Of a stretch of 13,867 bases of DNA, positions 4,531 through 10,599 are shown one piece after another. The notes under the pieces are model-generated. The model was not told the origin of the DNA, ran no database searches, and saw nothing but the letters and a program-made list of their open reading frames with translations. The translations under genes and the position numbers were made by a program. Numbering within the stretch: position 1 is the stretch's first letter; each line of letters starts with the position of its first letter. The DNA is from Desulfobacteraceae bacterium (GTDB taxonomy: Bacteria; Desulfobacterota; Desulfobacteria; Desulfobacterales; UBA11574), in contig PKTV01000566.1 of assembly GCA_002868985.1 (NCBI GenBank), positions 1 through 13,867 of the forward strand, written 5' to 3'.

Positions 4531-4550
4531 ATTGTGAGCGAAGCGAACTA

Positions 4551-4743
4551 GTGTCCATCCAGAAATTCAAAATGAACACAATGGGTGTCCAATTCAGAAA
4601 TGAGCAATTTTTGTTCTGATCAAGGCCGCACAAGGGTTTGCGGTCCCCGCACACGGGACAGGAAGGCGTACGTCTGTACGCCGCAGCCGGAAACCCGCGG
4701 AGAACGCCGAGCAGGACAAAAAGGGCCATTTATGGATGGACAC
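4551..4743 (+). mobile_element. MITE-like structured repeat, copy 1 (193 bp)
   Basis: The ends are perfect 10-bp inverted repeats, GTGTCCATCC and GGATGGACAC. The element is flanked directly by GAACTA on both sides (4545-4550 and 4744-4749), consistent with a target-site duplication. It is about 95% identical to the copy at 5242-5435 (8 substitutions and one indel counted by eye). The inside forms nested stems: TTTTTGTTCTG (4608-4618) with CAGGACAAAAA (4712-4722), one mispair; GGGTTTGCGG (4634-4643) with CCGGAAACCC (4687-4696), one mispair; a GTCCC/GGGAC hairpin (4643-4659); and a perfect GGCGTAC/GTACGCC hairpin (4665-4682). No transposase is encoded, so movement would need an enzyme from elsewhere. 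Short open frames inside both copies are by-products of the repeat. Confidence 0.8.
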
Positions 4744-4764
4744 GAACTAACTTGTAGGGATGGA

Positions 4765-5220: not shown

Positions 5221-5248
5221 ATTGTCAGTATCTGAGCTTAAGTGTCAA
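5221..5248 (-). promoter_or_regulatory. Candidate promoter partly made by the end of repeat copy 2
   Basis: On the minus strand a perfect TTGACA (5248-5243) lies inside the terminal repeat of copy 2, followed after 16 bases by GACAAT (5226-5221, four of six matches to TATAAT). The predicted start is about 25 bases before the TTG of the 140-residue gene, leaving room for its AAGGGA site. The -35 exists only because this terminal repeat reads GTGTCAATCC instead of GTGTCCATCC. Confidence 0.35.
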
Positions 5249-5435
5249 TCCATAAATTTAAAATGAACACAAAGGGTGTCCAATTCAGAAATGAGTAATT
5301 TTTGTTCTGATCAAGGCCGCACAAGGGTTTTCGGTCCCCGCTCACGGGACAGGAAGGCGTACGGTCTGTACGCCGCAGCCGGAAACCCGCGGAGAACGCC
5401 GAGCAGGACAAAAATGGCCATTTATGGATGGACAC
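5242..5435 (+). mobile_element. MITE-like structured repeat, copy 2 (194 bp)
   Basis: Same orientation and same fold as copy 1. The left end has one change (GTGTCAATCC); the right end is the intact GGATGGACAC. The GGCGTAC/GTACGCC hairpin is conserved although its loop gained one base. CTTAA directly precedes the left end (5237-5241) and recurs after TA at the right end (5438-5442), suggesting a target duplication if the element ends in TA on that side. The right end touches the stop codon of the 951-residue ATPase gene, so the element lies between that gene and the small gene downstream. Its hairpins could act in the transcript as a processing or attenuation structure. Confidence 0.8.
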
Positions 5436-8290
5436 TACTTAAAAAGCGACATCTGAGCGTCTTCCTTCTTTTTCCAGCCTTTGATCGGCCCCTTTCGAAT
5501 CTTTGCAAAAACACCCGGAGCAAGATTTGTATGGCGAGCCCAATCCAGCATAATCTTGGCAATGGTTTCCGAAGTGCTTTCCTTCCAGTTTTCCTTCAGC
5601 TTCTCCTGAAGTTCATGGCCAAGTTCTAAAAGAGTGCCTCCTTTAATCTGTTTTGATTTAAGGATTTCTATGAACACAGAAAACGAAACCAGCTGCAAAG
5701 CGCCTTCTGCAAACAAAAATGGGCGGTTATTCGGATTTTCCACAAAGGCTTTTGCTCTTGGCAACACTTTTATCAATGGTGCCTTTCTAAGAATGAATCC
5801 CAGATCCTCTAATGTTGCCAGCGCTCTAAAAATCGTATTTTTGTGAAGTCCTGTCCAATTCACCCTGCCATCCTCTTGGAGGGCATGAACAAGGCGCATG
5901 GCAATGTTTTCAACAGGTGCATATTGAATTCTCGGGGTTTTGCCTCCCCGTCTTTTAGAGAGAAAAATGTTGCGCACGCGAATGTCTGTTGCCGGATCAA
6001 AGTAAATGAGGGTTTTGTCTTTTTTGTTCAAAACCGCCAGGTCGGCAGCATCCAGCCACTCAGCCAAGATCCGGGCGTGTTTTAACCAGGCAAGTCTCGT
6101 CATCTTAATAAAGGGGAACAATGACTCAAGACGGCTGGAAATGTCGACCATTTTCAGCCTGTGATTGTCTTTGAGGGCTTTTAAGATCTCTGAAACCAAA
6201 CGATTTTTATGTAACCGGTTTCGCAGGTGATGTCGAAACAAAGCTTCCATCTCCTGGTTGGCATCAGACATGTCAAGTTGCAAAAGAACCGTGCCTTGGC
6301 CAAATCTCACGATTCCGAGCAGATCCAAATCCTTTGCGAGGCCATAAAACGCGAGTTCGGATAAGCTGATTTGATTTTTAAATTCGGAAACATCAAGAAT
6401 GCCTTTGGCGGCATGGAGAAGCTTTAACGCATGGACGACCTGACCCACGGCTGTGTCAAGAAGATAATGGTCATAAAAGGGTAAATCGCCGGTATTCAAA
6501 TAATCGTGAAAAATACTCCATGAAATGTCCACGGTATTGCCGATTCTATGGATCAGTCCCTGATGGGTCAATTTTTGAACGGCTTTGGGATCAAACATTT
6601 CCAAAAGCGCCGATGACCGCCCGGGGATTGATTTGGCAATTTGATGTAATGTGGCTCGTTCCGTGTCTGACAGATATTGAAATTCCTGCTGGAACAGTTC
6701 TTCAATGCCTAGCAAAATCCCTGGGATATCCGACTGTGGAATACCGGATTGACGCGCAACCATTACATGAAAGCAAAGTATTTTCAGAAGCCAGGGATAA
6801 CCTTGTGAAAATTTCTCAAGGAATGATTGAAGGCCCTTTGTTAAGGTCTCATCCAATTCTCTGCCAAGCTTTTTTAAAAGCATACCCATTTGGGCCTTAG
6901 AAAAAGTGGTGAGAATCATTTTCCGGCAATCATCGGCAACAGCATCAAGTTGTTTATTAGAAAATGCATCGCTCGATAAAACAAGATCCTTGTCCCACGT
7001 GAAGCCCAGAATAATATTTGTTTGTTTCTCGACGATTTTCAGAAAGAGTTTTTTAATCTGATTCAGCACATCCGGTAGAAAAAGAATATTTTCAAAAGGG
7101 TCGAAAAAGATAAACAGCAGTTTGTTTTTAGATTCAAGAATTTGACCGGTGTCCAGAATCATGCGCACAGCACTGTCAAATCCTGATATCTTCTTCTTTT
7201 GATCTGTTTCGACGATCCGTCCATCAAGATCCCCGAATTTTCCCACGGTATATTCTAACACTCGCGGAATGAACGTTGATGATGACGCTGTTCGGCAATC
7301 TACGGCAACTGCAAAGTGCCCCATCTTTTTCAAATGTGCCACGCTCGCCAGCACCATTGAACTTTTTCCCCAGCCAGTGGGGCCCTCGAATACAATACCG
7401 CGATGTGTGGTCTGGTTATGAATGACTTGATCAGAAAACGAATCAAGATTGCTGAAAAGGGATTTTCTACCCACAAAGTATCGGGGAGATGCGGGGAATT
7501 GATACTCAAAACAGGATGAACTTCCATTCACTTCTACAATTGGATCTGAATACTGGAACAGGCCCGGCTGAAGCGGACCTGTCTTGCCCGTAGAAATGTT
7601 GTCAAAATTTGCTATTGCAGGATCCAGTTTTGTCAGATAGCCGATGATGGATCGATCAGATATCAATTCACCTTTGCCGTCAAAGATTGCGATTTTATCC
7701 GGCGTTTTACTCCCGTGTGAAATAATGGGGTAGGCCCAAAACATGCCTTTTTGGGTATACAGCAGAATACCCTCACCAGGTTTCCCTATATCCGGAGGGA
7801 TTCGACCGGCAATCTGGTCCGGACTCACATGCCCCGGCATTCCTGAAATCGCTTTCAGAGCATCGTCTTCATCGTATAGAAAGGTTGTGACATGGGTATT
7901 ATTTTTTATGTGCTCTCGATAAAATTTCATGGCCCCACCGTCAAGACAGGGTAAGACGATAAAGAGGCCGTGACACCGTCTGTCCGTGTGCCATTTTATC
8001 ATATATCTGCCGAAAAAAGCCTGAAGGTCCCGTTCCGGCATGGGGGTTTCAGAAAACCTGCAGGCTGCATAAAACGGAAAACCTGTTTCCCTGTGTTTCC
8101 CCTGGACATCAATTTCCATTTGAGCGGGATCTGAGTGCAGGATGTGGTCAATACGGTATCCATCGTGATTTAGAACCCGGGTCATCATTTCCGCAAACAA
8201 CTTACCCCGGGCCTGGATCCGGGTGTGCTGCGAACGATCTGATGCGAATATTCTCAACTTTCCCATATCGATATTGTCTCTTTCAACCAC
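5435..8290 (-). CDS. REase-like (Mrr-type, degenerate) plus STAND/AAA-like P-loop ATPase, candidate defence protein
   Basis: 951-residue multidomain protein with no close named relative that I recognise. Residues about 25-125 resemble the Mrr-type PD-(D/E)XK fold: a helix with QARGKLFAEMM, GY at 44-45, MEIDV with D61, then YAACRF (74-79) where active members have a Q/E-C-K motif, then DLQAFFGRY and HGLFIVLPC. E/Q and K are replaced by A76 and R78, so nuclease activity is doubtful. The NTPase core has YFVGRKSL (271-278), Walker A GPTGWGKSS (303-311), Walker B LLFIFFDPFE (391-400) and a lid/GYPWLLKIL segment near 497-505, as in STAND or AAA_16-type switches. The remainder is helical with probable winged-helix units near 540-600 and further on. 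The start is GTG at 8290 (AGGA ten bases upstream); ATG at 8266 is an alternative. The gene follows cooS by 90 bp on the same strand. Its TAG stop lies at the edge of the MITE-like copy 2. The defence role is inference from architecture. Confidence 0.85.
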   Translation of the reverse strand: MVERDNIDMGKLRIFASDRSQHTRIQARGKLFAEMMTRVLNHDGYRIDHILHSDPAQMEIDVQGKHRETGFPFYAACRFSETPMPERDLQAFFGRYMIKWHTDRRCHGLFIVLPCLDGGAMKFYREHIKNNTHVTTFLYDEDDALKAISGMPGHVSPDQIAGRIPPDIGKPGEGILLYTQKGMFWAYPIISHGSKTPDKIAIFDGKGELISDRSIIGYLTKLDPAIANFDNISTGKTGPLQPGLFQYSDPIVEVNGSSSCFEYQFPASPRYFVGRKSLFSNLDSFSDQVIHNQTTHRGIVFEGPTGWGKSSMVLASVAHLKKMGHFAVAVDCRTASSSTFIPRVLEYTVGKFGDLDGRIVETDQKKKISGFDSAVRMILDTGQILESKNKLLFIFFDPFENILFLPDVLNQIKKLFLKIVEKQTNIILGFTWDKDLVLSSDAFSNKQLDAVADDCRKMILTTFSKAQMGMLLKKLGRELDETLTKGLQSFLEKFSQGYPWLLKILCFHVMVARQSGIPQSDIPGILLGIEELFQQEFQYLSDTERATLHQIAKSIPGRSSALLEMFDPKAVQKLTHQGLIHRIGNTVDISWSIFHDYLNTGDLPFYDHYLLDTAVGQVVHALKLLHAAKGILDVSEFKNQISLSELAFYGLAKDLDLLGIVRFGQGTVLLQLDMSDANQEMEALFRHHLRNRLHKNRLVSEILKALKDNHRLKMVDISSRLESLFPFIKMTRLAWLKHARILAEWLDAADLAVLNKKDKTLIYFDPATDIRVRNIFLSKRRGGKTPRIQYAPVENIAMRLVHALQEDGRVNWTGLHKNTIFRALATLEDLGFILRKAPLIKVLPRAKAFVENPNNRPFLFAEGALQLVSFSVFIEILKSKQIKGGTLLELGHELQEKLKENWKESTSETIAKIMLDWARHTNLAPGVFAKIRKGPIKGWKKKEDAQMSLFK

Positions 8291-8380: not shown

Positions 8381-10441
8381 TCACACAGCCAGTCCAAGCT
8401 TTTTCCGCTTGGCATTAACGTGCGCAAGGATGGTTTGAGCCGCCTTATTGGGATCTGTCTCAACATAAAATTTACCGCCCACCAGCCCTTCCACACCATC
8501 GGTCAAAAGTTTAACCATATTTTTACTGCCGGAAACATAGGGTTGGCCGCCGATATGGGTCATGGCGCCTAAATTTACCGCCCATGTACCGATGGATACG
8601 GCTTTTTCAGTGATAAATTCCGGCGCAGAAGCCGCCACCGGCAAATCGCTGATTTTCACCTTCAAATACCCCGCAACAGCGTTTAGAACATCCTCAATGC
8701 GTGAGTTGTCCACACAGGAACCCATATGCCTGCACGCTGGAAGCGCGGGCACACCGTTGGCCTTTGCAACAGCTTTCAACACCGCTTTTAGGCCGTCTCC
8801 AACACCGGGATAATCAGGGTTGGGCTCGAGCAGACCCCGCTGTCCGGCGACATGCGCCCAGCATCCGGTACCGACAACAAGGACATTTTGTGCCAAAAGC
8901 GTTTTTGTCAATGCAAGATGACGGTACCCATAATGATCCCAGGGGGTAACGCATCCGACGATGGCTACGATCCCTCTGATATTGTTGCCGACAATGTTGT
9001 CAATCAATGGTTTGAGGGGATCGGAGGCGTTTAACTTGGACAACGCCCCGATGATTTGTTCAACTGAAAAACCGGCCATTATTTTTGCCGGGGGATGATC
9101 TGGAATCATCACCTTGTTTGATTTTCGAAGTCCGTAGTTGTCTACGGCAATTTTAACAATTTTTTGCGCAACCTCATCTGCTTTTTCCGGTTCAAACTCA
9201 ATATGCGTTGCTCCGGTTATTTTGGCCTGAGGATTGGTGGTGATGATTTTCGTATGAAAGTGCTGAGCAACCCGCTGAACGTTCGGCATAATACACTGAA
9301 CATCAACCACCATGGCTTCCACCGCGCCGGTAACAATAGCCAGCTCCTGTTGTACCATGCTCCCGGCCAAAGGAACACCTCTTCGCATCAGCACCTCATT
9401 TCCGGTACAGCATATGCCGACGACATTGATAGACCGCGGCGGAGACGGATATTTCTCGGCAGCTTCAACTATTTTTTCGGAAAGAATCGGTTCATGGCCG
9501 TGAACGATAATGTTGATCCTGTCCTTTTTGATCACACTCAAATTGGCGAGGCTGGAAACCAGTTTCGGGGTACCGAACAAAACATCCTGCATGTCCGTGG
9601 CCGGGTGAAGTCCGCAGTAGCCGTCCACCAGTCCCAGTTTCAGGGCGTCAGTAGCCAGATGGGTCATATCGGCGTCAACTCCCATGTGGGTTCTGTGGCA
9701 GGCCTGGCTGATCTCTGCTCCGGCACCGGTGGGAAGAATCCCCAGCTTTTTCCACGTGGCTTTTCTTTCCGCATTGGCCTTGTATCCCAGCCATGCCGGT
9801 TCACCTTCATCCTTGCCCAAATCGGAAAGGCAGGTTTCGGCAACCGCCAGTGCCTTGTTTTTCCCCTTGCATCCGAGGCCCTTATAAAGCACATCCAGTT
9901 TCGCTTTGTCTCTGATTTTATATGCCTTGATTTTACCGGTTGCGACACCTTTCAATGTTTTGGCCGTAGCTCTCGCATGTTCAACATGTGCCGAAGCCCC
10001 ACAGGTCACACGCCCCACCAGCCCTCGAGCAACAATGGTATCCGCCGTCGCACCGCAGGCGCCGTATTCGTATCCCGTGGCTTCGCCGAGAGTGCATGGC
10101 CCCATGTTGCAATGAAAACAGCAAACTCCTGAAATACCACCGTTTCCTTCTTCAGAGAACTCACAATGGGCCTTTCTGTCCCAGACCAAATCAATGTTTT
10201 GTTTGTGGGCATGATCGATCAGTTTTTCAGTGATGGGATCGGAAGTAAACCCTTCAGGAATTTTTTTGATGGATTTTGACTGGCTTTTCTTGTCCCCGGA
10301 CGCAAAAACTTCTTTGCCGTCGAGCATCAGACCGGCGACACCGGCAGCTGCGGTGGCCTTTAAGAAATCTCGTCGGTTGACCGCTTTACATGTCTTGCAG
10401 CCTACCGTCTTGTTTATGATTTCGGGATCCTTTTCATCCAT
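8381..10441 (-). CDS. cooS: Anaerobic Ni-Fe carbon-monoxide dehydrogenase catalytic subunit with Tat-type leader
   Basis: 686-residue CooS-type enzyme interconverting CO and CO2 at the Ni-Fe-S C-cluster. All six C-cluster ligands are identifiable: H316 in VHGHEP, C345 in GICCTGNE, C383 in DVQCIMP, C497 in AIVGC, C527 in GTGC and C576 in HMGSCVDNS. K613 matches the conserved catalytic lysine. The B/D-cluster cysteines are C93, C107, C108, C111, C116 and C129. Oddities: an N-terminal NRRDFLKATAAAGVAGLML twin-arginine signal (R23-R24) preceded by CKTC; a C-X13-CC spacing where the usual D-cluster motif is C-X7-CC; and A158 and K161 at two positions of the usual four-histidine ladder (H152 and H155 remain). 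A perfect AGGAGG site precedes the ATG. No cooC, cooF, cooA or acetyl-CoA synthase genes are in the window. Family assignment is firm; export is predicted only. Confidence 0.95.
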   Translation of the reverse strand: MDEKDPEIINKTVGCKTCKAVNRRDFLKATAAAGVAGLMLDGKEVFASGDKKSQSKSIKKIPEGFTSDPITEKLIDHAHKQNIDLVWDRKAHCEFSEEGNGGISGVCCFHCNMGPCTLGEATGYEYGACGATADTIVARGLVGRVTCGASAHVEHARATAKTLKGVATGKIKAYKIRDKAKLDVLYKGLGCKGKNKALAVAETCLSDLGKDEGEPAWLGYKANAERKATWKKLGILPTGAGAEISQACHRTHMGVDADMTHLATDALKLGLVDGYCGLHPATDMQDVLFGTPKLVSSLANLSVIKKDRINIIVHGHEPILSEKIVEAAEKYPSPPRSINVVGICCTGNEVLMRRGVPLAGSMVQQELAIVTGAVEAMVVDVQCIMPNVQRVAQHFHTKIITTNPQAKITGATHIEFEPEKADEVAQKIVKIAVDNYGLRKSNKVMIPDHPPAKIMAGFSVEQIIGALSKLNASDPLKPLIDNIVGNNIRGIVAIVGCVTPWDHYGYRHLALTKTLLAQNVLVVGTGCWAHVAGQRGLLEPNPDYPGVGDGLKAVLKAVAKANGVPALPACRHMGSCVDNSRIEDVLNAVAGYLKVKISDLPVAASAPEFITEKAVSIGTWAVNLGAMTHIGGQPYVSGSKNMVKLLTDGVEGLVGGKFYVETDPNKAAQTILAHVNAKRKKLGLAV

Positions 10442-10599
10442 GGCGAAACCTCCTTGGTATTGCAGTTAATAAATTTATTTTTAACGGGAAAAAATCCGGC
10501 AAGTATCGAGGTGAGCACCAATTAAAGGGTATCACTTTATGCGGTCCTCCAAATGTGCATTTAAGCGAAATGAATTTATATATTAAGGAATGAGGTATT

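Follow-up and report, generated by a model that had tools for sequence, protein, structure and literature searches.

Characterised CooS enzymes are, to our knowledge, cytoplasmic. The closest described relatives of the protein studied here are two Ni-containing CO dehydrogenases (Ni-CODHs) of Carboxydothermus hydrogenoformans, CODH-IV (6elq), a high-affinity CO scavenger, and CODH-II (1su6 and others); both have a type II D cluster. The CooS of Desulfovibrio vulgaris (6b6v, 6vwy) is the Ni-CODH of a sulfate reducer, and we know of no twin-arginine (Tat) leader in it. Sulfate reducers also contain periplasmic [NiFe] hydrogenases and formate dehydrogenases, which are folded metalloenzymes with an RRxFLK leader that pass their electrons to c3 cytochromes.

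In the main text of Inoue et al. 2019 (PMC6344411), Ni-CODHs are treated as passing electrons to ferredoxin-like proteins; that main text does not contain the terms signal sequence, twin-arginine, translocation, export or heme, and it uses periplasm for transporters only. A clade of CooS proteins with Tat leaders was not met in a limited literature search, where mentions of twin-arginine concerned other proteins or the pathway itself.

The cooS gene described here lies in the window, by which we mean the whole 13,867-nucleotide stretch analysed. Its product (the query) shares the fold, 14 cluster and catalytic positions and the type II D cluster with CODH-IV and CODH-II at 43–49% identity. It differs from them in having a Tat leader, a D-cluster spacing of CX13CC rather than CX7CC and no adjoining cooF or acs. 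The D. vulgaris enzyme also has the catalytic positions of the query (40–41% identity); unlike the query, it is assigned in the text of PMC6344411 to clade E-2 with a type III D cluster. If exported, the query would work like the periplasmic hydrogenases and formate dehydrogenases, although their catalytic subunits are unrelated to it and it is a single subunit with its own leader.

Results and discussion

The cooS gene (8381..10441; this and all features of the gene given below are on the minus strand) encodes a Ni-CODH catalytic subunit of 686 aa with a Tat leader, whose N-terminal sequence is MDEKDPEIINKTVGCKTCKAVNRRDFLKATAAAGVAGLMLDGKEVFASGDKK. The product scores 595.3 bits against TIGR01702 (anaerobic CODH catalytic subunit; cut-off 478), PF03063 matches residues 106–664 and the predicted model matches 6elq. 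An AGGAGG ribosome binding site (10449..10454) sits 7 nt 5′ of the ATG, upstream of which the frame stays open for only eight more codons (694 versus 686). On this basis the start is sound.

Residues 1–47 (10301..10441) constitute the predicted Tat signal peptide, with the cut at VFA-SG after A47. PF10518 (TAT_signal) and TIGR01409 both match residues 21–38, with 24.3 bits (cut-off 22.7) and 24.5 bits (cut-off 16.7) respectively. The query thus has the features of a Tat substrate: RRxFLK, an uncharged core, matches to curated Tat models and an AxA-type site, at which cleavage is plausible from the sequence. The twin-arginine motif, RRDFLK, occupies residues 23–28 (10358..10375); R23 and R24 are invariant in the leader alignment, the 70 rows of which had been chosen for bearing RR. 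Compared with the homologue in genome G208 (75% identity to the window's CooS), the segment VNRRDFLK (residues 21–28) is identical at 8/8 residues while 5/8 codons are silently different, which indicates that the leader is conserved at the protein level.

A protein search gave 8000 scored candidates; the 1e-50 threshold left 7829, of which the best 120 were taken forward. The CooS tree (n = 214) comprised the query, 117 of the best 120 matches and those CooS ORFs that a motif search picked out of the loci; P0075, P0077 and P0085 (<580 aa) were left out. Of the locus CooS ORFs, 101 passed the filter; loci missing the motif were dropped, likewise five repeating clade genes. The query and P0001–P0074 form a clade of 75 with support 0.957, or 0.974 once five solved CODH references are added. 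In this tree an RR leader is present in 70/75 clade members (22/22 in the query's sub-branch and 48/53 in the other) but in only two of the 139 CooS outside the clade, P0076 and P0082; the contrast places the Tat leader beyond chance. With the locus ORFs extended back as far as the stop before them, 5/101 showed the RR pattern, and these five are three Tat-clade genes. The sequence-only reading had proposed residues 22–40 as a Tat signal, and both the profile scores and the leader in most of the clade bear this out; the search that it suggested for further CooS with RR N-termini has uncovered a whole clade.

Among the leaderless members of the clade, the sequences of P0059, P0071 and P0072 begin within the catalytic domain, and the first residue of P0067 is Leu, so a contig end is probable. 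P0022 has a Met start near residue 60 and may, judged by its sequence, be a leaderless member. Examined for leaderless orthologues starting after residue 60, the clade favours the Tat reading, with P0022 as the sole doubtful case. P0022 would also fit a wrong start or a chance motif in the query, with the true protein beginning near residue 60. AGGAGG at the first ATG, the silent codon changes in the motif and the clade-wide leader make such an error extremely improbable, and we have rejected it. Outside the tree rows, P0075 bears RR and P0077 (438 aa) lacks the N-terminus. One source already annotates P0070 as a twin-arginine signal protein, and clade member P0025 is recorded under Candidatus Desulfarcum epimagneticum.

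P0076 and P0082 group with the leaderless P0078–P0081 in a sister branch (support 0.997 in the 214 tree and 99 in a second tree). The second tree was made from 57 hand-picked rows using residues 103–684, thus omitting the leader along with most of the D loop. In it the Tat clade is one side of a branch with an SH-aLRT of 84 (not starred), rising to 100 when taken with the sister branch. The RR trait requires two changes on this tree, which could be two gains or a single gain plus a loss, and we therefore reject a leader arising from many CooS branches. We note that in P0078–P0081 the two D-cluster cysteines are replaced by Ser and Thr; the B- and C-cluster positions are kept.

The 11-residue core of the leader is uncharged in 22/22 members of the query's sub-branch and 47/48 of the other (69/70 in total), and 17/22 and 30/48 (47/70 in total) carry a strict [AV]xA site. 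TIGR01409 at E 0.001 recognises 19/70 clade leaders, thus the curated model alone would overlook most of the clade. The 23/70 leader-bearing members without the strict site would suit a Tat-exported enzyme whose leader stays uncut, anchoring it to the periplasmic side of the inner membrane with electrons passing directly to a membrane complex. Helix 23–39 of the predicted model could serve as such an anchor. However, the query has VFA-SG, its sub-branch mostly has the strict site, and a CxxCH motif soon follows the leader in 43/48 members of the other sub-branch (below); an uncut anchor is therefore unlikely.

The CKTC ahead of the RR had been singled out as unusual in the sequence-only reading. 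It is present (residues 15–18, 10388..10399) in the n-region of the leader, but is poorly conserved: CxxC occurs at this place in 11/22 members of the window's sub-branch and 0/48 of the other. Giving it special weight is therefore not supported, and we have rejected a functional role for it in the clade. The n-region Cys pairs in 11/22 could bind metal or a chaperone, as might be expected if the leader were read by a Tat-type chaperone as quality control of Ni insertion and the protein stayed cytoplasmic. We consider this very unlikely, since the leader type, the uncharged core and the frequent AxA are those of working export signals and other CooS mature without a leader (137/139 outside the clade).

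The enzyme was compared with the five solved CODHs at 14 positions, whose identities as cluster ligands and acid–base residues we take as established. At 14/14 (D, B and C clusters and the acid–base His/Lys) the query agrees with all five, and the positions are kept in every clade row having the stretch. The B-cluster ligands are C108, C111, C116 and C129 (10055..10120), conserved in those clade rows that cover them. Alignment to the five structures identified the C-cluster ligands H316, C345, C383, C497, C527 and C576 together with the acid–base K613 (8603..9496); the acid–base H152 lies upstream of this stretch. From these residues, the window's CooS looks catalytically complete. The predicted model has a mean pLDDT of 84.7 and is confident beyond the disordered residues 1–57 (residues 1–24 and 27–57 are below 50). 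It has the CODH fold, superposing on CODH-IV (6elq) with a TM score of 0.86 (query) and 0.94 (target).

The loop of the D cluster, the electron exit, runs from C93 to C107 (10121..10165) with the spacing CX13CC. This spacing is found in 22/22 members of the query's sub-branch and 45/48 of the other (two are X14 and one is unmatched). Among the 139 CooS outside the clade, 121 have CX7CC, none has X13, there is one X10 and one X18, and 16 are unmatched. A type II D cluster of clade F is allowed C-X7-13-CC in the text of Inoue et al. 2019 (PMC6344411); the query, with CX13CC and a complete active site, fits this clade F type II description at the upper limit of the range. In the reference tree the query joins CODH-IV and CODH-II (0.964) before the AM4, D. 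vulgaris and C. autoethanogenum enzymes, and groups with CODH-IV apart from CODH-II (0.914); of these two, CODH-II is the one whose clade assignment is taken from PMC6344411.

In the other sub-branch, 43/48 leader-bearing members have CxxCH behind the leader, four have CxxC without His and one has neither. The motif lies 39–41 residues before the first D-cluster Cys (41 members measurable). No CxxCH is found in the stretch before the D cluster in any of the 139 CooS outside the clade, and it is absent from the window's CooS and its sub-branch (0/22), which rules out a haem motif within the window's own protein. By its sequence and placing, the CxxCH of the other sub-branch resembles a haem c site close to where electrons leave the enzyme. 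We do not accept it as a certain haem site, since 4/47 CxxC members are without His and the model of P0039, a CxxCH member, is weak there (pLDDT 43 for residues 41–50 and 62 for residues 51–60). Tentatively, the clade may represent an exported Ni-CODH lineage rewired for the periplasm, with an enlarged D loop throughout and, in the larger sub-branch, a covalent haem c relay towards extracytoplasmic cytochromes; we regard this as possible rather than probable.

The assembly that holds the window (577 contigs, 89.7% complete) contains three near-complete CooS. The other two are 43 and 38% identical to the window's and have no leader at their start; a fourth match spans only 95 codons. TatC is present in this genome (250.7 bits). 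On the tatC contig (L127, 21–524 and 783–1956, both minus strand), an ORF for a class III type cytochrome of 167 aa with four CxxCH adjoins tatC, as does a TatA/B-like ORF (judged by eye). The genome also has eight class III cytochrome matches above cut-off, six cytochrome c554 matches and dsrA, a gene content that points to a sulfate reducer.

At E 1e-165 the gene was found in 4/389 genomes of the order (G000, G003, G083 and G208); these four also made up the result for the class sample (4/389). The phylum sample gave 4/395, two of which are in the Tat clade (G000 and G083); in the same sample G600 is leaderless and beside a CooF-like ORF, and G464 is without an N-terminus. Within the same genus, the G003 copy lies at a contig end and covers the C-terminal 441 aa, and G002 has a piece matching residues 1–27. 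In G004 (L122, 8248–8661) a leaderless cooS remnant of 137 codons occupies the syntenic place between EAL and AAA genes. The presence of a remnant in a same-genus genome suggests that the trait is dispensable.

No cooF, cooC or acs was found beside cooS, either among the six window neighbours (Pfam) or at the G208 and G083 loci (by eye). The co-directional gene 90 bp after cooS (5435–8290, minus strand) encodes a 951-aa protein with only weak AAA-type Pfam matches, and it is beside cooS in G003 and G004 too; a defence link of this AAA gene was discarded, as there was no PADLOC match. Further along, the window holds two direct repeats of about 200 bp (4550–4750 and 5241–5442), which are 94–95% identical and 691 bp apart. 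Their outer ends bear a 21-nt inverted repeat, and the whole is perhaps a small mobile element. A mobile origin of the gene itself was rejected: one scan of viral contigs gave no relative and plasmids gave two distant matches (43 and 32%).

A solo gene without energy-conserving partners, rare and dispensable, could be that of an exported enzyme not engaged in CO respiration, which would clear CO that poisons periplasmic metalloenzymes (e.g. hydrogenases) or act as a CO2 reductase. That the nearest solved structure is CODH-IV, a CO scavenger as noted above, is in keeping with the former. However, the lengthened D loop, like the CxxCH in the other sub-branch, suggests selection on outward electron transfer. 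Scavenging would likewise need an acceptor. Taken together, we think CO removal or CO2 reduction improbable.

The explanation we favour, and judge rather likely, is that the window's protein is a CooS-type Ni-CODH, near CODH-II/CODH-IV, which is exported by Tat, cut at VFA-SG and passes the electrons from CO on to cytochromes in the periplasm. From the sequence data we infer the export, the cutting, the direction of catalysis and the acceptor. The steps draw on the known behaviour of Tat leaders and CODH clusters. CooS would be made and folded with its Ni–Fe–S C cluster in the cytoplasm, carried folded over the inner membrane by Tat and then cut. In the periplasm it would convert CO to CO2, with electrons passing from the C cluster to B and D and out at the enlarged D-cluster loop. 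The acceptors would be small c-type cytochromes (class III, c3-like) feeding the membrane complexes of sulfate reduction, and the class III cytochromes of this genome could take these electrons.

This explanation is consistent with the Tat models above cut-off, the leader (common in the clade and rare outside it) with its uncharged core and [AV]xA sites, and the retained VNRRDFLK. It also agrees with the 14/14 kept positions and the disordered residues 1–57 ahead of a confident CODH fold, and with the genome's TatC, TatA/B-like ORF, four-CxxCH ORF, class III cytochromes and dsrA. The D-loop change shared by the clade and the CxxCH shortly before the D cluster in the other sub-branch argue for it as well. 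Weighing against it are the few leaders recognised by TIGR01409 (19/70), the members missing the strict site (23/70), the lack of a partner gene beside cooS, the possibly leaderless P0022 and the same-genus remnant.

Conclusions

The Tat tag shared by this clade suggests CO oxidation outside the cytoplasm in these bacteria, a place not expected for a Ni-CODH. If the enzyme is periplasmic, a Ni-CODH would oxidise CO without ferredoxin, protons would be released outside and a new electron partner would be needed; the Ni–Fe–S enzyme would also have to be loaded ahead of Tat passage. Were the haem relay of the larger sub-branch real, it too would mean CO oxidation outside the cytoplasm and without ferredoxin, the window's gene belonging to the branch without the haem motif. 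The clade supplies clear test proteins, and its D-loop and CxxCH changes mark a possible partner-binding place.
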